Notes under the pieces: model-generated
Database searches by the model: none
What the model saw: the letters and a program-made list of their open reading frames with translations, nothing else
What the model was told of the DNA's origin: nothing
Shown here: positions 20,009 to 27,724 of the stretch, piece by piece
Layout: every line of letters begins with the position of its first letter
Position numbering within the stretch: position 1 is the stretch's first letter
Translations under genes and position numbers: made by a program
From: Bacteroidaceae bacterium
GTDB lineage: Bacteria; Bacteroidota; Bacteroidia; Bacteroidales; Bacteroidaceae
DNA: 32,550 bases
NCBI GenBank assembly: GCA_024401185.1
Contig: JAKSLO010000020.1
Location: 1 to 32,550 of the forward strand
Direction of reading: 5' to 3'

Positions 20009-20362
20009 TTACTCAGCAACAGCCTCTTCAACAGCAGCAGCCAAGCTGTCAACTGCCTCAGCTACTTCTTCAACAGCAGCCTCAGCCTCCTCAGCAGCCT
20101 CTTCGCTGTGCTCTTCCTTCATACCGAGAGCGATGCTCTTCTTCTCAGCAGCAGCCTCAGCCTTAGCCTTGTCCTCAGCTGAAAGACCGTTCATCCACTC
20201 CTCAGCCTCCTTAGCAATCTTCATCATACCCTCAATGTCATTCTTCTGAGATGCCTCATAAACCTGCTGAACATAAGCCTCAGCCTGTGCCTCTACACTC
20301 TTCTTACAGCTAACAAAGGTCATGCTCATAGCAGCCAATGCGATAACGAAAAACTTCTTCAT
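20009..20362 (-). CDS. Small lipoprotein with Ala/Glu-rich tail (paralogue 1 of 3)
   Basis: A 117-residue predicted lipoprotein: signal MKKFFVIALAAMSMTFVS, then Cys19. The Lys-Lys after the Cys differs from the acidic surface-export signal of Bacteroidetes lipoproteins, so it probably faces the periplasm. The core KSVEAQAEAYVQQVYEAS and EEWMNGLSAEDKAKAE matches its two upstream neighbours. The tail (about 80-117) is built of Ala, Glu and Val and looks helical or disordered. It has its own promoter and terminator. I do not recognise a function. Confidence 0.75.
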   Translation of the reverse strand: MKKFFVIALAAMSMTFVSCKKSVEAQAEAYVQQVYEASQKNDIEGMMKIAKEAEEWMNGLSAEDKAKAEAAAEKKSIALGMKEEHSEEAAEEAEAAVEEVAEAVDSLAAAVEEAVAE

Positions 20363-20536: not shown

Positions 20537-20911
20537 TTATTCTGCAGCAACTTCGGCAACCTCGGCCACTGTGCTATCAGCGGGAACTTCCTCTGCCACT
20601 TCGTCTTCTTCAACCACATGAGTTTCCTGCATCTTCTTCAGTTCGTCCACCGACATGCCAAGGCTCTTAGCCATGTACTCCATGAAGACCTGTTCGCTGA
20701 TTTCCTTTGCCTTCTGCTGATCCTCTTCCGACAGGCTCTTAATCCACGCTTCCGACTCCTTCTCAATGGCAGCCAGTTTCTCCTTGTCGCCAGCCTCCTC
20801 GGCAGCAATCATCTGCTCACAATAAGCCTTCACCTGAGCCTCAACACTCTTCTTGCAACTTACAAAGGTCATGCTCATGGCAGCCAATGCGATAACGAAA
20901 ATCTTCTTCAT
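20537..20911 (-). CDS. Small lipoprotein (paralogue 2 of 3)
   Basis: A 124-residue predicted lipoprotein. Its first 26 residues are nearly identical to paralogue 1 (MKKIFVIALAAMSMTFVSC then KKSVEAQ), and the DNA there is almost unchanged, whereas the rest has diverged strongly. The shared core is KAYCEQMIAAEEAGD and EAWIKSLSEEDQQKAKE. The tail is acidic and Val-rich (EEDEVAEEVPADST). It follows paralogue 3 by 20 bases and probably shares its promoter. The function is unknown; a periplasmic location is inferred from the CKK after the lipobox. Confidence 0.75.
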   Translation of the reverse strand: MKKIFVIALAAMSMTFVSCKKSVEAQVKAYCEQMIAAEEAGDKEKLAAIEKESEAWIKSLSEEDQQKAKEISEQVFMEYMAKSLGMSVDELKKMQETHVVEEDEVAEEVPADSTVAEVAEVAAE

Positions 20912-20931: not shown

Positions 20932-21213
20932 TTATTTATTTTCCATTCTGTACTTTTCCACTCTCTTTCTGTTCAGCTCGTCCAACATCTCACTTGCTGC
21001 TTTCTCGCATCGCTCCATTTCCTCTTCCGAGAGCGTAGCATTCCATTCGGCTATTTCATCGAGAATCTTACAATACTTTTCGTTTTCGCCTGCCTCAGCA
21101 GCATCGTTAAGTTGCTGCAGATAGCTTCGAGTCTTATCCTCGATGGTATGATCTTTGCAACCACACATCATAAAGGTGCTCATCGCGAAGGAGAGAAGAA
21201 AAACATATTTCAT
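20932..21213 (-). CDS. Small lipoprotein (paralogue 3 of 3, most divergent)
   Basis: The ATG at 21213 gives 93 residues with signal MKYVFLLSFAMSTFMMCG and Cys19; a longer reading from an upstream TTG would overlap the promoter. The core YLQQLNDAAEAGENEKY and AEWNATLSEEEMERCEKAA lines up with the two downstream genes at the W-x3-LS-x-E pattern. It lacks their long acidic tail and ends in a basic segment (NRKRVEKYRMENK). It is the first gene of a two-gene unit with paralogue 2. The function is not recognised. Confidence 0.7.
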   Translation of the reverse strand: MKYVFLLSFAMSTFMMCGCKDHTIEDKTRSYLQQLNDAAEAGENEKYCKILDEIAEWNATLSEEEMERCEKAASEMLDELNRKRVEKYRMENK

Positions 21214-21236
21214 AATTTCCAAACTTAAAACAAATG

Positions 21237-21268
21237 TAAAGTTACACTTTTTCAGTATTACAAACAAA
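21237..21268 (-). promoter_or_regulatory. Promoter for the lipoprotein 3-2 unit
   Basis: Minus strand: TTTG (21268-21265), 20 bases, TAACTTTA (21244-21237). It has one mismatch from TAnnTTTG at the last base. The -7 box ends 23 bases before the ATG at 21213. Confidence 0.72.
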
Positions 21269-21350: not shown

Positions 21351-21395
21351 AAAAAAGAGTTGTTTTAAGGAACACTAATCCTCAAAACAACTCTT
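21351..21395 (-). terminator. Strong terminator after the large BspA-like gene
   Basis: The 17-bp stem pairs 21379-21395 with 21355-21371 and has one G-U pair and a seven-base loop. Read on the minus strand, a T run follows immediately. It lies 27 bases past the stop at 21422. Confidence 0.93.
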
Positions 21396-21421
21396 CTGTT
21401 TTATTATGTCACAATTCTACC

Positions 21422-24400
21422 TTAGAACAAAATCTTTCGAGTAGAACCATCAGACATCTTCACGATATTAATTCCCTTCTTGGGTTTTGCAGAACGTTGA
21501 CCAGAAAGATTATAGAAGTTGGTAGGAGTAGCATTGCTCTGGATACGAGCGACGTCCGTAGCCTCATCATCCTCTACATAATCATCGTCGAGGATGCAAA
21601 TCTTAACCTCGTTCATCATATCTGGTTCCTGAGCAAACTGCGAATCACGACTTTCATAAGTCATAAACCAACGATAAGGGTTCAATGTGACTTTATCTGA
21701 ACTAGATCTAAGCAACTTGCCATTAGCCAAAGCATAGGCATTCAAGCTATGCAAGCCATCACGCTCTATATAATTACCTTCAAACAAATAAGATTCTGTC
21801 AAAGAAGCACAATCAATGCTGTTCATTTTTTTATCAGAATAAAGAGTTACCTCGTCAACCATGTCCTGAACAACAATTGTCTTGCGTCCTGCAGTTTTAG
21901 CCTTTATCACATAAGGATAGCCAGCCTTCAAGGTATGACCTTCAACAACCTTCAGCACATAGAGTACTGTCTTATCCATCTTACCATCGTCATCGGTATC
22001 ATACTGAGCCAAATTATCGATAGCATACACATCAAAGTTCTTGCTCCAGTTCTCATACTGCATTTCAAAGGGAACGAACAAAGCCTGCATCTGGTCGTTG
22101 GTAAAGTTACGCTTGTAGGTTACCTTCAGGTATGCTTTATCTTCCTCATTAACATAAGGTTTTGCATCATCAAGAGTAATACTTCTGATTTCATGGAAGT
22201 TGAACAATTCATTCCAACCATTAGCGTTTTGATAATCCTCTACTGTACCAATGGGCACATGAAGCGTACAGTTCTGTCGATATCTCTCAGCGAATGATGG
22301 ATTGAAAGTTCCTACCTTCAACAAAGAAGGTTCTGCGAGATCAGAATAGATATCCTTCAAATTCTTGCAATTATAAAACATCTCACTATGATCCTTGACG
22401 CTCGACATATCGAAGTTCGTCAAATCCAAAGAAGCCAATTGTTGACAATTATAAAACATGCGGAAGGTAGTGGTATCGTTCTGCAATTCAAAATTACTCA
22501 AGTCAAGCTCCTTAAGCTTATAGCACCCATTAAACATGCTGCGGGTATTACGAACATTAGATGTCTGGAAATTGCTGACATCAAGAGTCTGCACGTTGTT
22601 GCAATTATAGAACATCACATGCATGCTCGTTACTTTGGCAGTATTAAAATTGCTCACATCAAGTTCCGGCACCTTTGAGCAATGATAGAACAGTCCTCTC
22701 ATGTCCGTCACATTCGGTGTATTGAAACCACTTACATCAAGAGCCTCAAGATTTTTACAACTACCAAACATGTAATACATGTTCGTTACATTTCCTGTAT
22801 CAAACTTGTCGCCCAACTGAAGCTTAGTCATTGAACTACAAGCATTAAACATAGAATTCATAAGAGTAACGTTCTGGGTGTCAAAACTACGTAAGTCAAG
22901 CTCAGTAATTGTTGTGCATCCATTAAACATGGCATCCATACGCGCCACCTTAGAAGTGTTGAACTTAGAAACATCAAGTCTTGTAACCAACGAATCCCTT
23001 GAGAACATAGCATCCATACGCGTTACATTGGCTGTGTTAAAATTGCTCACATCCAATGTGCGAACCTTATCACATAGCAAGAACATCTCTGCCATATTGG
23101 TCACATTGGCAGTGTTAAAATTGCTTACGTTAATTACAGGCAACAATCTACATTCGCGGAACATACGGTACATACTTGTCACATTTCCCGTGTTAAATTT
23201 GCTCACGTCAAGAGTCTGCAACGCCTTACAAGCATAGAACATACTTCCCATAGTATGAACATTGGCTGTATTGAAACCATCACCATCAACCCTAAGTTCA
23301 GGCACACCTACGCAGTTAGCAAACATGCCACTCATATTACGTACATTTGCGGTATTGAAACCACTCACGTCAAGAGCCGTCAATGAAGAACACCCTGAAA
23401 ACATATTGACCATCGTCGTATCCCGTGCAGTATCAAAACCACTCACATCAAGCACCTTAACACTTTTACAATCAGCGAACATGCTGCCCATAGATACTAC
23501 ATTGCTCGTTTTGAAGCCACTCACGTCTATTACCTCAAGCAGCGGGCAATTATAGAACATGGCAAACATAGTGGTGTCCTTTTCCGTTTTAAAGCCCGAA
23601 ACATTCAATTCTGCAAGGCTCGTACAGTCTCTAAACATAGCAGAAGTACTTTTTGCTTCAGAAGTATCAAAGTTTCCGACTTCAAGTTTGGGAACAGCCT
23701 TGCAGTATGCAAACATATCACTCATGTTTCTCACCTTTGAAGTATTAAAGTCACGAACATTGATGTCAGTAAGCAGTCTACAATTATAGAACATGCCGCC
23801 CATGCTCATCACCTTCTCTGTTTTAAACTTGCTCACATCAAGTGATTCAAGAGCCGCACAGTTATAGAACATACGGTACATGGTGGTATCATTCGACGTT
23901 TCGAAATCGGAAACGTTCAAGGACTTAATATTCTTGCAATTTGCAAACATGTTCTGCATGTTCACAACTTTGGACGTATTGAACTTGCTCACATCAAGTG
24001 ATTCAAGAGCCGCACAATTATAGAACATGGCATTCATCGTGGTGTCATTGCTGGTGACAAAACCACTCACATCAAGCGACTGAAGAGATTCGCAACCACT
24101 GAACATTGAATTGGTATTCTGTACATTTGAAGTATTAAAGCTTTTCACATTTAGTGATTGCAAAGAAGAACAGCCATAGAACATACTTCCCATGCGTAAC
24201 ACATTCTGTGTGTCAAAGTTACTCAAATCAAGCGATGTTAGCGAATTACAATTGTAGAACATATCGGTGAAGCTATTCACATTAGAGGTATTGAATTTGC
24301 TCAAGTCAAGTTCCGTCAACTGTTTACAACCACGGAACATACGATACATGGTAGTGTCACTTTCAGTATTGAAATTGTCCAAACTCAGTTCGGCAAGAGA

Positions 24401-25663
24401 TGAGCAATTATAGAACATCGAAGCGGTATTCTCAACATTCTTTGCATTAAAATCAGAAAGATCAAGCGTAGTCAAAGAAGAACATAAAGCAAACATCTCC
24501 TTCATGTTGCTTACGTTTTCCGTAACGAAATTGTCACCAAAATTGATACTGGCAAGATTTGTACAGCCATAGAACATGGCTTCCATAGCAGTCACATTAG
24601 CAGTATTGAAGCTGCTTAAATCGAGCGAGCTAATACTCTCGCACTCTTTAAACATGCCTATAGTGGATGTCACGTTATCTGTAACAAACCCTGACACGTT
24701 GATAGAAGACAAACTTCTACATCCATTGAACATGCTGCGCATTGTCGTTGCACTCTGCGTGTTCAACTTGCTTGCATCTACAGTGGTAAGCTTAGGACAC
24801 CCATGAAAAGTAAGATAAAAGTTCGTACATTTAGCAGAATTCAGGTTATCACCAAAAACAATTGTGGTAAGAGTAGAGTCACCTCTAAACATCTCCTGCA
24901 TAGTAGTCACTTCGGGAATGCTGAAGTTATTTAAATCAATACTAGTCAGACTCTGACATCCCTTGAACATACCATCCATCCTTGAAGCCTTTTCTGTATT
25001 AAAACTACTCAAGTTGACAGAAGACAGATTCTCACATCCATTGAACATAGATTGGAATTGTGTTCCGGAATTCGTCTTGAAATTACTTAAATCAAGGGTT
25101 GTCAAACTCGTACAATTCTGAAACATGCTATAGAAATACGTTACGCCCGATGTATCCAACGTACCCCAGTTGATCGACTTCAGTTTCGTACAACCTTTGA
25201 ACAAATTACAAATATAAGTTGGTTTGTGATTTTTGGTTTTAAGCTTACTGAAATCAACAGACTCCAAACTACTACAGTTTTGGAACATCATGTTAAAATT
25301 CTTTCCTGTCACACTAAGATTTGTGAAATCTACAGACACAAGATTCTCACAATCAGCAAACATTCTGCGGCAAACAGCAGCAGTAACGTTCTTAGCAAAC
25401 TTTACGCTCTTAATCTGTGTACAATAATCATGCCACGGAGCATTCTGTGAATCATTATCAGTATCGGAAACAGTTCCACTATTATCCCATCCACTAATGG
25501 TACCGTTACCTTTACTAGGCGCAATTGTCAACACACCATTGTCGTCAATCACCCAAGTACACTGACTATTGCCCGATCCCACCGTTCCCGATGCAATCTC
25601 TGCCGAGATGTTCAAGCTTGTAAACAAACAAGCCAATATCAAAAATAATCTTCTTGCTTTCAT
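21422..25663 (-). CDS. Giant BspA-like leucine-rich-repeat surface protein
   Basis: A 1413-residue secreted protein. The ATG at 25663 gives a signal peptide (MKARRLFLILACLFTSLNIS, cleavage near AEI). A BspA-type N-domain (about 22-100: CTWVIDDNGVLTI, APWHDYC) leads into 39 tandem repeats of 26 residues (about 101-1120) with consensus MFxxCxxLxxLDVSxFNTxxVxxM, the DUF285/BspA type. A mixed C-domain follows (about 1120-1370, with QYDTDDDGKMD and LKAGYPYVIKAKT). The last 33 residues, FYNLSGQR then GINIVKMSDGSTRKILF, resemble a type IX secretion sorting tail. BspA relatives bind host matrix proteins or other bacteria; binding here is inference. It lies 47 bases after a small peptide gene. Confidence 0.93.
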   Translation of the reverse strand: MKARRLFLILACLFTSLNISAEIASGTVGSGNSQCTWVIDDNGVLTIAPSKGNGTISGWDNSGTVSDTDNDSQNAPWHDYCTQIKSVKFAKNVTAAVCRRMFADCENLVSVDFTNLSVTGKNFNMMFQNCSSLESVDFSKLKTKNHKPTYICNLFKGCTKLKSINWGTLDTSGVTYFYSMFQNCTSLTTLDLSNFKTNSGTQFQSMFNGCENLSSVNLSSFNTEKASRMDGMFKGCQSLTSIDLNNFSIPEVTTMQEMFRGDSTLTTIVFGDNLNSAKCTNFYLTFHGCPKLTTVDASKLNTQSATTMRSMFNGCRSLSSINVSGFVTDNVTSTIGMFKECESISSLDLSSFNTANVTAMEAMFYGCTNLASINFGDNFVTENVSNMKEMFALCSSLTTLDLSDFNAKNVENTASMFYNCSSLAELSLDNFNTESDTTMYRMFRGCKQLTELDLSKFNTSNVNSFTDMFYNCNSLTSLDLSNFDTQNVLRMGSMFYGCSSLQSLNVKSFNTSNVQNTNSMFSGCESLQSLDVSGFVTSNDTTMNAMFYNCAALESLDVSKFNTSKVVNMQNMFANCKNIKSLNVSDFETSNDTTMYRMFYNCAALESLDVSKFKTEKVMSMGGMFYNCRLLTDINVRDFNTSKVRNMSDMFAYCKAVPKLEVGNFDTSEAKSTSAMFRDCTSLAELNVSGFKTEKDTTMFAMFYNCPLLEVIDVSGFKTSNVVSMGSMFADCKSVKVLDVSGFDTARDTTMVNMFSGCSSLTALDVSGFNTANVRNMSGMFANCVGVPELRVDGDGFNTANVHTMGSMFYACKALQTLDVSKFNTGNVTSMYRMFRECRLLPVINVSNFNTANVTNMAEMFLLCDKVRTLDVSNFNTANVTRMDAMFSRDSLVTRLDVSKFNTSKVARMDAMFNGCTTITELDLRSFDTQNVTLMNSMFNACSSMTKLQLGDKFDTGNVTNMYYMFGSCKNLEALDVSGFNTPNVTDMRGLFYHCSKVPELDVSNFNTAKVTSMHVMFYNCNNVQTLDVSNFQTSNVRNTRSMFNGCYKLKELDLSNFELQNDTTTFRMFYNCQQLASLDLTNFDMSSVKDHSEMFYNCKNLKDIYSDLAEPSLLKVGTFNPSFAERYRQNCTLHVPIGTVEDYQNANGWNELFNFHEIRSITLDDAKPYVNEEDKAYLKVTYKRNFTNDQMQALFVPFEMQYENWSKNFDVYAIDNLAQYDTDDDGKMDKTVLYVLKVVEGHTLKAGYPYVIKAKTAGRKTIVVQDMVDEVTLYSDKKMNSIDCASLTESYLFEGNYIERDGLHSLNAYALANGKLLRSSSDKVTLNPYRWFMTYESRDSQFAQEPDMMNEVKICILDDDYVEDDEATDVARIQSNATPTNFYNLSGQRSAKPKKGINIVKMSDGSTRKILF
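22304..25363 (-). repeat. 39 tandem 78-bp (26-aa) leucine-rich repeats
   Basis: The conserved Met of the first repeat is at 25363 and that of the last at 22381. This is 994 residues for 38 steps, or 26.2 per step. Most units carry MFxxC, and a few are 27 residues or read LF/TF. Units with DTTM replacing VxxM are numbers 13, 17, 19, 23, 25 and 37. Units 18 and 20 begin with the same MFYNCAALESLDVSKF and are nearly identical in DNA. Confidence 0.9.
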
Positions 25664-25710
25664 ATTCTCGTCTTTGATATTTCTGTAATTAAAACAAGGT
25701 CTATGCTGGA

Positions 25711-25908
25711 TTACCAAGCATTGTCCCAAATAGTTTGGCCCTTAACATCCCATGATTCAGTAGGATCAGGATCAACTGAAATTCCGCCATTTCCACCATC
25801 ACCGCCTGTCTCTGTGTCAATTTGGGAACCAATAAGAAATTCCTCGTCCTCATCCAATTCAACCACACAGTTCACAGGAACCATATACGCCTTTCTAACA
25901 ATCTTCAT
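25711..25908 (-). CDS. Small acidic peptide upstream of the large BspA-like gene
   Basis: A 65-residue peptide with no signal sequence or membrane helix. The N-terminus RKAYMVPVNCVVELDEDEEF is followed by FLIGS, a Gly/Asp-rich middle (ETGGDGGNGGISVDPDP) and the end SWDVKGQTIWDNAW. It shares K-x-Y-x-x-P near the start and WDVK-x4-WD near the end with the 58-residue peptide at 27479-27655, which also sits directly before a BspA-like gene. It starts 33 bases after the stop of one BspA gene and ends 47 bases before the next. It may be a leader, chaperone, regulator or peptide product; I do not recognise it. Confidence 0.68.
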   Translation of the reverse strand: MKIVRKAYMVPVNCVVELDEDEEFLIGSQIDTETGGDGGNGGISVDPDPTESWDVKGQTIWDNAW

Positions 25909-25941
25909 CTTCTTATAAACTATTTTCCTGATTTTTAGGTA

Positions 25942-27447
25942 TTAATACATTATTTTGCGTGTTGTGCCGTCAGACATCTTAACAACATTGATGCCCTTCA
26001 AAGGCTTACTTGAGCGCAAGCCAGCTGCATTGTAATACTCCACGACTGATGCATTCTGTTCTACGGCATTTACCTCTGTCTCATCATCAAAATCATCCTC
26101 GCCAATCACATAGAACTTGACACTCATCACATCACCATTAGTTTCTAATTCTGGCTTCAGGCCATCATTAAACTGCGAGTCACGCTTGTCGATGGTCATA
26201 CACCATCGGTAAGGTGTAAGCGTGGCATTAGCCGACGCTGCTGGACGCAACTCACCACTGGCCAACGCAAAAGCATGGAGATCATACAAATCATTACGAC
26301 TCATATAGTTGCCCTCGAACGTATAGTATTGCGATACTGAGTAGCAGTCCACCTTTTTCATCTCAGTGCAAGGATGTAAGGTAGCATTCTTGGGCTTAAT
26401 CTGCTTTACACCTGTTGTCTTTGCCTTGATAAGGTAGGGATATCCTGCCTTCAACTTATAGCCCTCGGTCACTTTCAAGATGTACAACTTAGTAAGGTCC
26501 ATCACACCGTCGTTATCAGTATCATACTGCGACACATTATTAAGTGAATACACTGTGAAGTCATCCTTCCAGTCATCATACTCCATCACAAAAGGCACAT
26601 ACAATGCTTGATAATTGGTATTCTTGAAATTACGCGAATAAGTCAGCGACTTGCACTCGATTGTAGATGGGATGGTGTAGGGCTTGGTATCCTCTAATAC
26701 GATGTTATCAAGCGACTGCACTTTACCGAGCTCACACCAACCTGGCGCTGAATTTTTATTCTTCTTGTAGGTCGCCTGAGAACCTTCAGGCACATACAGA
26801 GTACACTTGCTTCCTACAGATGAGAAGACACCTGCCTTCAGCGTTGAAGGTTTACTGACCGTAGAATAAATAGCAGATAAGCTGCTACAGCCAGAAAACA
26901 TGCCAGTCATAGTGATCACCTTGCTCATGTCAAACCCCGTCATATCAAGCGTCATCAGGGATGAGCAGCCGTTGAACATATTGTTCATATTTGTCACTTT
27001 CGAGGTATTGAACTTACTCAAGTCCACAGAAACTAACTTGGCACAACCGTTGAACATATTGTTCATATCAGTCATTGCACTCACATCAAGAGCACCCAAG
27101 TTTACAATAGCAATCAACGAACTGAAACCGTAGAACAAACCATTAGAGAAATTCTGAGCCACAAACGATTCACCAGAAGTATGAATGGTAATTTTTACAC
27201 CTGAGTTGACATCTTCCTTCTCAATGTAAACAGGAGTTGAACCTTCAGAAATATTATTCTGGTTTCCATAGCCACTTCCCGTTTTAAACTCAATAGTGAC
27301 AAGCTGTTTGCCTTCAAGCTTATCAACGATATTCTTATGCAATTCAGCAGGTAGTTTTGCGTCTGATGCTGCCCAGCCTTTTGCTCCTGAAAGAATTAAA
27401 GCCATGGTGCACACCAAAAAGATGCGATAAATAATAGTATTCTTCAT
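25942..27447 (-). CDS. BspA-like surface protein with few repeats
   Basis: A 501-residue secreted protein with signal MKNTIIYRIFLVCTMALILSGAKGWA. Only four repeat units are present (start residues about 104, 131, 157 and 183: LFYGF, then MFNGC, MFNGC, MFSGC). The C-domain (about 200-460) parallels that of the 1413-residue neighbour step by step: QYDTDNDGVMDL, LKAGYPYLIKAKTTG, LTPYRWCMT and RDSQF. It ends in the same tail type (YYNAAGLR then GINVVKMSDGTTRKIMY). It is therefore a short paralogue with the same export tail and a contracted repeat array. It follows a small peptide gene by 31 bases. Confidence 0.92.
   Translation of the reverse strand: MKNTIIYRIFLVCTMALILSGAKGWAASDAKLPAELHKNIVDKLEGKQLVTIEFKTGSGYGNQNNISEGSTPVYIEKEDVNSGVKITIHTSGESFVAQNFSNGLFYGFSSLIAIVNLGALDVSAMTDMNNMFNGCAKLVSVDLSKFNTSKVTNMNNMFNGCSSLMTLDMTGFDMSKVITMTGMFSGCSSLSAIYSTVSKPSTLKAGVFSSVGSKCTLYVPEGSQATYKKNKNSAPGWCELGKVQSLDNIVLEDTKPYTIPSTIECKSLTYSRNFKNTNYQALYVPFVMEYDDWKDDFTVYSLNNVSQYDTDNDGVMDLTKLYILKVTEGYKLKAGYPYLIKAKTTGVKQIKPKNATLHPCTEMKKVDCYSVSQYYTFEGNYMSRNDLYDLHAFALASGELRPAASANATLTPYRWCMTIDKRDSQFNDGLKPELETNGDVMSVKFYVIGEDDFDDETEVNAVEQNASVVEYYNAAGLRSSKPLKGINVVKMSDGTTRKIMY
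26824..27138 (-). repeat. Four BspA-type 26-aa repeats
   Basis: The units start near 27138, 27057, 26979 and 26901. The second and third are close copies in DNA, 78 bases apart (matching runs near 26972 and 27050). The first has LFYGF in place of MFxxC. Confidence 0.82.
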
Positions 27448-27478
27448 TATGATAATGTTTTTTATTTACTTATACTTT

Positions 27479-27655
27479 TTAATCCCAAAAATCAAACTCT
27501 TTCACATCCCAATGGTCAGTGAATTCTTCGTCTTTGTTAATATCGCCTATATTTTCATACCCTAAACCAAAGTCGTGAGACTCTTTCATAAATGCATTTT
27601 CATTAGCAATTGTCCTAAACAACAACGATGGTTCTATGTATGTTTTTTTTTCCAT
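27479..27655 (-). CDS. Small acidic peptide upstream of the short BspA-like gene
   Basis: The ATG at 27655 gives 58 residues; an upstream TTG at 27679 is less likely. The sequence opens KKTYIEPSLLFRTIANENAF and ends FTDHWDVKEFDFWD, with an acidic middle. The Y-x-x-P start, the xF[LM]xxS segment and the WDVK-x4-WD end recur in the peptide at 25711-25908, though the middle parts do not align. There is no secretion signal. It is the first gene of the four-gene peptide/BspA unit and has a -7-like element upstream. The function is unknown. Confidence 0.65.
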   Translation of the reverse strand: MEKKTYIEPSLLFRTIANENAFMKESHDFGLGYENIGDINKDEEFTDHWDVKEFDFWD

Positions 27656-27716
27656 ATAATCATTAACCCCAAGCAACAACTCTCCGTCTATTATTAATAT
27701 AGGAATATTTGAGATG

Positions 27717-27724
27717 CAAAGTTA
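27717..27724 (-). promoter_or_regulatory. Probable -7 element for the peptide/BspA unit
   Basis: The minus strand reads TAACTTTG, a full TAnnTTTG match, 61 bases upstream of the ATG at 27655. No TTTG is present 19-21 bases above it, so the -33 half is weak or activator-dependent. Confidence 0.55.

Follow-up and report, generated by a model that had tools for sequence, protein, structure and literature searches.

What do the two very short open reading frames (ORFs) encode that alternate with two BspA-like genes on the minus strand of contig JAKSLO010000020.1, from a Bacteroidaceae bacterium (assembly GCA_024401185.1)? The whole contig, 32,550 nucleotides long, is the window of this analysis; it is one of the 180 contigs (C94 in our numbering) of a genome that is 83% complete. 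The row reads peptide 1, BspA1, peptide 2, BspA2, with gaps of 31, 33 and 47 bases, and the original prediction, made from the letters alone, had the four ORFs, their order and spacing right. The two motifs it had seen in both peptides are likewise exact: K-x-Y-x-x-P near the N-terminus (KTYIEP in peptide 1, KAYMVP in peptide 2) and WDVK-x4-WD near the C-terminus (WDVKEFDFWD and WDVKGQTIWD). We are nearly certain that the peptides are real genes of a large, previously undescribed family linked to genes for tail-bearing surface proteins. On balance we also think it probable that the two are precursors in a system of Bacteroidota for ribosomally synthesized and post-translationally modified peptides (RiPPs), similar to the class of linear polyphosphorylated peptides (LPP), which a set of PqqD-type, protease and kinase proteins would mature.

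Short acidic peptides behind tail-bearing surface-protein genes

Queried with peptide 2, the window's genome yielded four further places, and a profile built from 21 peptides found 16 at E ≤ 1. Among genomes of the same family, 274 of 399, from 22 of 30 genera, match a peptide profile at E ≤ 0.1 per genome, with at most 15 candidates scored in each; of 295 genomes from across the order, seven match at E ≤ 0.01, namely the window's own, one of the same family (G150), three of a single genus in another family (with 12, 2 and 5 matches), G558 and G645. The common pattern is Lys-x-Tyr-x-x-Pro near the start, a serine 16–18 residues further on and usually a tryptophan at the end; many family members have W-[DE]-x-x-W at the C-terminus. 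The peptides have a median length of 60 aa and a median isoelectric point (pI) of 4.5 (n = 167), and 152 of the 167 have a tryptophan within the last 12 residues. In 221 of 226 peptides the serine lies 16, 17 or 18 residues past the proline (+16 in 134, +17 in 74 and +18 in 13), compared with 88 of 226 that have a serine at +14 to +18 in a shuffled control; it mostly follows two hydrophobic residues, and an alanine stands two positions ahead of it in 118 of the 226.

Substitution between close peptide pairs is mostly purifying: in the closest 40 of 84 pairs, the ratio of nonsynonymous to synonymous rates (dN/dS) is 0.06–0.44, barring 0.55 (twice), 0.71, 1.08 and one undefined value. Neither window peptide matches Pfam or NCBIfam at E ≤ 1, and a scan of 57 family members against the same collections returned no covering family, only single-member matches to unrelated models (best E 0.0019; one of them, to a lasso peptide model, at E 0.044), which rules out membership of a known family. 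An ordinary signal peptide is ruled out by inspection, since charged residues lie within the hydrophobic stretch, in agreement with the original prediction that the peptides carry no export signal. The titles and abstract openings listed in searches of openly licensed literature hold no description of these peptides, or of LPP in Bacteroidota. A structure model of peptide 2 (mean pLDDT 64.4, pTM 0.21), in which residues 1–20 score 87 and 81 by tens and the rest 51–65, is weak evidence that would fit a leader followed by a flexible core. At one locus of the window's genome, a second and more diverged YxxP-type peptide, not listed by the profile, lies directly 3′ of the first (L004:1265–1447).

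The same-strand gene directly upstream of the peptide typically encodes a product with a short C-terminal tail of the approximate form Y-[ND]-L-x-G-[QR]-R ... K-G-x-Y-I-V-N-G-K-K-V, for which we built a profile from 26 tails. With peptides identical over their last 40 residues counted once, 157 of 178 lie immediately 3′ of such a gene, and the median gap between partner and peptide is 27 nt. Of the remaining 21, window peptide 1 is flanked by a tail gene on the downstream side alone, and 20 have one on neither side, a count that is limited by the collected stretches being short downstream and that includes ORF-calling faults (at L127 a tail gene ends right before the peptide). These figures cover loci L001–L022, L027–L129 and L209–L271, collected ahead of the order-level genomes and of those negative for PorV, a part of the type IX secretion system (T9SS); loci L160–L208, from those genomes, are omitted. 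In these 49 the tail gene is upstream, by eye, in 21 (all eight from the less complete genomes G405 and G381, and 13 of 16 from genus g140 of family f111) and missing in 28 (all 22 from 12 PorV-negative genomes, both from G558, the single one from G645 and three of the 16 from g140).

Under a strict rule, 101 of 120 peptides are behind a tail gene; L005, L006 (window peptide 1), L008, L013, L063 and L067 appear to be genuine exceptions, and the other misses among the 19 have variant tails, cut or misread ORFs, or are ambiguous. A second sample was picked solely by the pattern MKKTYI[SLI]P in named ruminant-gut and other Prevotellaceae/Bacteroidaceae assemblies (L230, at an edge, was left out, and L255 yielded no peptide). 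Here, too, peptides alike in their last 40 residues entered once; 64 of 68 are behind a tail gene, compared with 12 of 225 control genes in these loci, and 51 of 53 against the same 12 of 225 (p 1.5e-41) once the 15 peptides shared with the first sample are removed. Within the window's genome, 12 of 16 peptide matches follow one of 63 tail genes (chance 3e-16, assuming ~2300 genes), and, seen from the other side, a peptide stands behind 12 of the 30 best-matching tail genes, including two that the profile had not picked up.

The partners are diverse (BACON, F5/8, Fn3-associated, InlB-like repeats, Ig), and by a crude rule 44 of 48 partner ORFs carry a signal peptide. DUF285 was found at E ≤ 0.001 in two of 46 scanned partners, which are the two window proteins, and in none of the other 44, which rules out the peptide as a BspA-specific partner. 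The original prediction had expected such peptides to recur beside BspA/DUF285 genes and to share the ending WDVK-x4-WD. They do recur, and their tie to an exported partner holds good (157 of 178); the recurrence is beside tail-bearing genes, BspA as such falls away as the partner, and the ending is not family-wide. The order of the unit, claimed to be peptide then BspA, is usually the reverse, cargo first and peptide second, with BspA1 and peptide 2 as the natural pair. As for the supposed duplication of a whole module, it stands for the BspA genes, whose products are 44% identical across 403 aa, reaching the very end, and not for the peptides, whose BLASTP alignment is limited to a 20-residue C-terminal stretch (45% identity, E 2e-4) and which are too diverged to show it.

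In our own reading of its sequence, the partner tail would be a T9SS short C-terminal domain like that of Prevotella intermedia. Cargo with this domain, as far as the available part of PMC11969387 describes it, resembles our partners, which have a short conserved tail at the C-terminus and, for the most part, a signal peptide, in a genome with PorV (E 9e-152), the sole T9SS part that was searched genome-wide; it differs in that this part of the source mentions no companion peptides. With PorV counted as present only over its curated cut-off, and 22 weak matches thus as absent, the two are associated across the 399 family genomes, which comprise 251 with both peptide and PorV, 23 with the peptide only, 56 with PorV only and 69 with neither. 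In the 12 PorV-negative genomes, 18 of the 22 peptide matches sit, by eye, just 5′ of an exported lipoprotein-like gene, and none is behind a tail gene; two of seven neighbours or near neighbours scanned there are fimbrillin-like.

Two further features of the partners were seen. Just ahead of the tail, many of them have a region in common (GTPV..L ... GFY ... AxKAYL ... DDATGI) that is unnamed among the 25 Pfam families listed. In G405, three different tail genes whose ends are almost the same (L177, L182 and L188) are each followed by an identical or near-identical peptide, as though a cassette of cargo-gene 3′ end plus peptide had been copied as one.

PqqD-type, protease and kinase genes in peptide-bearing genomes

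On contig C133 of the window's genome, genes for a PqqD-type protein, an S24/S26-like protease and an HprK-like kinase stand in one row beside a sigma factor gene. PqqD-type proteins were found in 50 of 61 genomes searched, and in 35 of 37 of the window's genus (its own genome included). The protein on C133 matches PF05402 (E 7e-15), and its N35 and D73, invariant in 42 of 42, would correspond to LppB N33 and D70, the Asn and Asp that hold YxxP, an equation made by position and spacing rather than by an alignment with LppB. The protease matches PF00717 over its cut-off (E 1.9e-5) and an archaeal-type signal peptidase I model below it (E 2.1e-3); with Ser62 in 36 of 37 and His101 in 37 of 37, it is a putative leader protease of the signal-peptidase-I-like type, whose action on the peptide leader is predicted. 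The kinase matches HprK_rel_A (E 8e-5) and ScmC (E 5e-5), both below cut-off, and His142, Lys163, Asp182 and Asp183 are present in 44 of 44.

The kinase was searched for in 80 genomes, made up of 16 of the 23 with the peptide only, 14 of the 251 with both, 24 of the 56 with PorV only, 15 of the 69 with neither and 11 from the order level. An HprK-like kinase is present in 33 of 35 peptide-positive against 22 of 45 peptide-negative genomes (p 8e-6); within the PorV-negative genomes of the family the counts are 16 of 16 against 6 of 15. Thirty kinase loci were returned with 1.5-kb flanks, and these hold protease and PqqD in 28 cases, PqqD only in one and neither in one. Of the 16 PorV-negative peptide-positive genomes, 12 have known peptide coordinates, and in six of these 12 (G360, G270, G283, G150, G403 and G190) the peptide lies 0.7–4.8 kb from the kinase gene. 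By eye, these six stretches resemble polysaccharide loci and contain PqqD, a second gene (NTP_transf_5 in both cases scanned), the kinase, export genes, the peptide and a lipoprotein. In G190 an apparent natural fusion of kinase and S24/S26-like protease (L318:8160–9371; Pfam S24 below cut-off) lies beside PqqD and a 33-aa peptide. PqqD, ABC exporter, NTP_transf_5, kinase and protease are all together in G558, and an exporter adjoins the set also in G485, G613, G465 and G171; exporter and NTP_transf_5 both occur in G558 and G150, and one of the two in several other genomes.

Two other proteins are encoded near the set. A conserved, exported-looking protein of ~140–170 aa (VYMFGFAASFNDSTVYF-like) lies between the sigma factor and kinase genes at L276, L277, L278, L279, L320, L324 and L329, with no convincing Pfam match in the two copies scanned. 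A T9SS plug protein gene (PF17116; L274:5494–6747 and L276:7985–9871) is two genes from PqqD in the window's genome and also near the set in some relatives, at L276 with plug and glycine-transporter domains within one ORF; we take it as local gene order, because it was not spotted by eye in the g6 loci.

Candidate maturation and competing explanations

The closest known counterpart, in the available part of PMC13381572 (2026), is the LPP clusters of Bacillota, where the same kind of gene set lies inside capsule loci. LPP precursors carry YxxPxVLxHQxIxFETxxS, the leader is removed after the T and the Ser is polyphosphorylated; YxxP is the leader motif bound by both lasso and LPP recognition elements. 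That part of the source calls LPP restricted to Bacillota and its role unknown. Common to both systems are a discrete PqqD-type RiPP recognition element (RRE), a signal-peptidase-I-like leader protease and an HprK-like kinase, together with short precursors that have a conserved YxxP N-terminus, a variable C-terminus and a Ser shortly past the leader; the NTP transferase and ABC exporter of LPP are found here in some genomes only, and the apparent polysaccharide-locus setting in several PorV-negative ones. The differences are the host (Bacteroidota here, Bacillota there), the number and place of the precursors (many, scattered and mostly behind tail-bearing surface-protein genes, as opposed to one to three within the cluster) and the lack of exporter and NTP transferase in the scan of the set's neighbours in the window's genome. 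A PqqD-type RRE with a [Y/W]xxP leader (PMC13381572, PMC5067487) and an HprK-like kinase bearing an H-K-D-D motif (PMC9266682) are shared, in the available parts of the sources, by paeninodin-like phosphorylated lasso peptides as well, whereas the protease here is of signal-peptidase type; neither lasso macrolactam cyclase nor B2-type protease is among the 12 proteins at the C133 locus, the sole locus scanned for them.

In the mechanism that we favour, the PqqD-type protein would bind the Lys-x-Tyr-x-x-Pro leader and the HprK-like kinase would phosphorylate the core, for which the near-invariant serine 16–18 residues past the proline is the obvious candidate. The protease, which we place in the cytosol, would cut shortly before that serine and release a short acidic peptide, which may then be exported. 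Coupling of each precursor gene to a surface-protein gene, here mostly one with a T9SS-type tail, would have the surface protein and the peptide made together. We infer the action of the set on the peptides, its chemistry, the cut site, the cytosolic protease, the export and the reason for the pairing alike; serine phosphorylation, cut site and export would follow from the parallel with LPP.

More tentatively, and with slightly less than even confidence in the whole, we propose that at least a dozen scattered precursors are matured by one and the same set of RRE, kinase and protease, that each of these precursors is made with its own T9SS surface protein (or, where T9SS is lacking, a surface lipoprotein), and that the modified, probably phosphorylated, peptides are a standing part of the surface coat or of the delivery of surface proteins. 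If so, LPP-type RiPPs would gain their first functional context, and a chemistry described in 2026 for Bacillota only would also be widespread in Prevotella-like gut bacteria, coupled there gene by gene to apparent T9SS cargo; the purpose of LPP-type peptides, and an unrecognised peptide partner of T9SS surface display, would become testable. Even without any maturation, a peptide gene behind a tail-bearing surface-protein gene offers a new, practical marker for such cargo.

A number of points weigh against precursors matured by this set. The leader lacks the HQ and FET of LPP, according to the available part of PMC13381572, and its serine is mostly at Pro+16/+17 rather than +15; because the exact leader consensus is absent, we call the system LPP-like and not LPP. 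The serine statistic is partly circular, the collecting profile itself conserving that residue, and a threshold of E ≤ 0.1 per genome makes some of the 274 positive genomes chance. As regards T9SS, the curated tail model TIGR04183 has no match to BspA1 or BspA2 at E ≤ 1; in the window's genome it has four over-cut-off places, one of which (C116) coincides with a place of our tail model. Window peptide 1 itself breaks the cargo-first rule, as do other exceptions. The 80 genomes of the kinase search were hand-picked, mostly for completeness, and relatedness inflates every co-occurrence p-value. HprK-like genes are also present in the 22 of 45 peptide-negative genomes, while G793 (89% complete, five peptide matches) and G645 (one) have no HprK-like match. 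In four of the six genomes with peptide and kinase close together (G360, G270, G283 and G403) the fetched stretch holds no protease, and in G150 the protease is 7 kb from the kinase, next to an exporter. Exporter and NTP_transf_5 are absent from the 12 proteins scanned at the C133 locus, the rest of that genome not having been searched. Finally, in the fetched kinase regions of T9SS-bearing genomes no peptide was found beside the set among the matches listed, the small ORFs there having had no systematic survey.

Some of these observations would also fit peptides that are real companions of surface genes together with a PqqD, kinase and protease set that has another target, the correlation arising from ancestry and from common surface or polysaccharide loci. 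The set's absence beside the peptides of T9SS-bearing genomes, the kinase genes of peptide-negative genomes, and the PorV-negative loci, which resemble polysaccharide loci and in four of six cases have no protease in the fetched stretch, all agree with it. We nevertheless consider it unlikely, given the contrast of 16 of 16 with 6 of 15 for the kinase in PorV-negative family genomes, the peptide beside a kinase–protease fusion in G190, and the fact that a similar set and YxxP precursors work together in Bacillota, as the available part of PMC13381572 describes.

We judge equally improbable a small acidic cytosolic helper that, in the manner of type III secretion chaperones, would act as chaperone or pilot and keep its exported partner competent for secretion. 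Its gene directly adjoins that of the partner, the product is acidic, about 60 aa long and by inspection free of a signal peptide, and the neighbours in PorV-negative genomes are exported proteins too (two of the seven scanned being fimbrillin-like). A helper would, however, leave unexplained the YxxP leader with its fixed serine spacing, the co-occurrence with the PqqD, kinase and protease set and the closeness of peptide and kinase in six of 12 PorV-negative genomes, and the partners come from many unrelated families.

Less probable still is a regulator of the surface-protein operon, for example a peptide acting in translational or transcriptional feedback, which the operon position, the short length and the 20 of 178 peptides that lack a tail gene upstream and downstream alike within the collected stretches would suit: the peptide mostly comes after the cargo and not before it, no regulator family is among the Pfam/NCBIfam matches, and the same N-terminal pattern runs across operons of unrelated content. 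Of the three roles offered by the original prediction, the evidence favours a precursor peptide over a secretion helper and a regulator. Short ORFs are common, but chance or artefact can practically be dismissed, because profile matches occur in so many genomes (274 of 399) and dN/dS is mostly low, and 157 of 178 peptides stand in one fixed context.

The gene row in the window

The leader assigned to both window peptides is a prediction. Peptide 2 occupies the place that the rest of the family would lead one to expect, while peptide 1 has an SDR oxidoreductase-like ORF without a tail upstream, and no peptide of the family was found 3′ of BspA2. Both BspA proteins match DUF285 and the PARCEL repeat model, as BspA-like surface proteins do, and their signal peptides, seen by eye, agree with the prediction that they are exported; to the peptide family, though, BspA is incidental.

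Table 1. Features of the row and its flanks, in window coordinates
Feature	Position	Strand	Description
Candidate −7 promoter element TAACTTTG (type TAnnTTTG)	27717..27724	−	weak, common motif
Peptide 1	27479..27655	−	58 aa, precursor-like; heads the row; E 2.3e-15 to a family model that contains peptide 1
Leader-like N-terminus of peptide 1	27587..27655	−	K-x-Y-x-x-P ... F-M; Ser at Pro+17
BspA1	25942..27447	−	501 aa; signal peptide by eye, DUF285 repeats, short C-terminal tail
BspA1 short C-terminal tail	25945..26040	−	E 6.3e-8 to a tail model that contains this tail
Peptide 2	25711..25908	−	65 aa, precursor-like; immediately 3′ of BspA1, where the family rule would place it
Leader-like N-terminus of peptide 2	25834..25908	−	K-x-Y-x-x-P ... 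F-L; Ser at Pro+17
BspA2	21422..25663	−	1413 aa; signal peptide by eye, DUF285 repeats, short C-terminal tail
BspA2 short C-terminal tail	21425..21523	−	E 5.3e-10 to a tail model that contains this tail
Terminator-like hairpin 3′ of BspA2	21353..21397	−	19-pair stem

A −7-like element at the front of the row and a strong terminator at its end had also been predicted. Both sequences exist, and neither carries the weight once given to it: the type TAnnTTTG has 10 matches on the minus strand within 20.9–28.0 kb, so that TAACTTTG alone is no proof of a promoter, and terminator-like sites in the scanned region number four against 5.1 expected, a count not above chance. Beyond the hairpin, three consecutive small lipoprotein-like genes of ~110–125 aa follow on the same strand (20009–20362, 20537–20911 and 20932–21267), two of them with near-identical N-termini.

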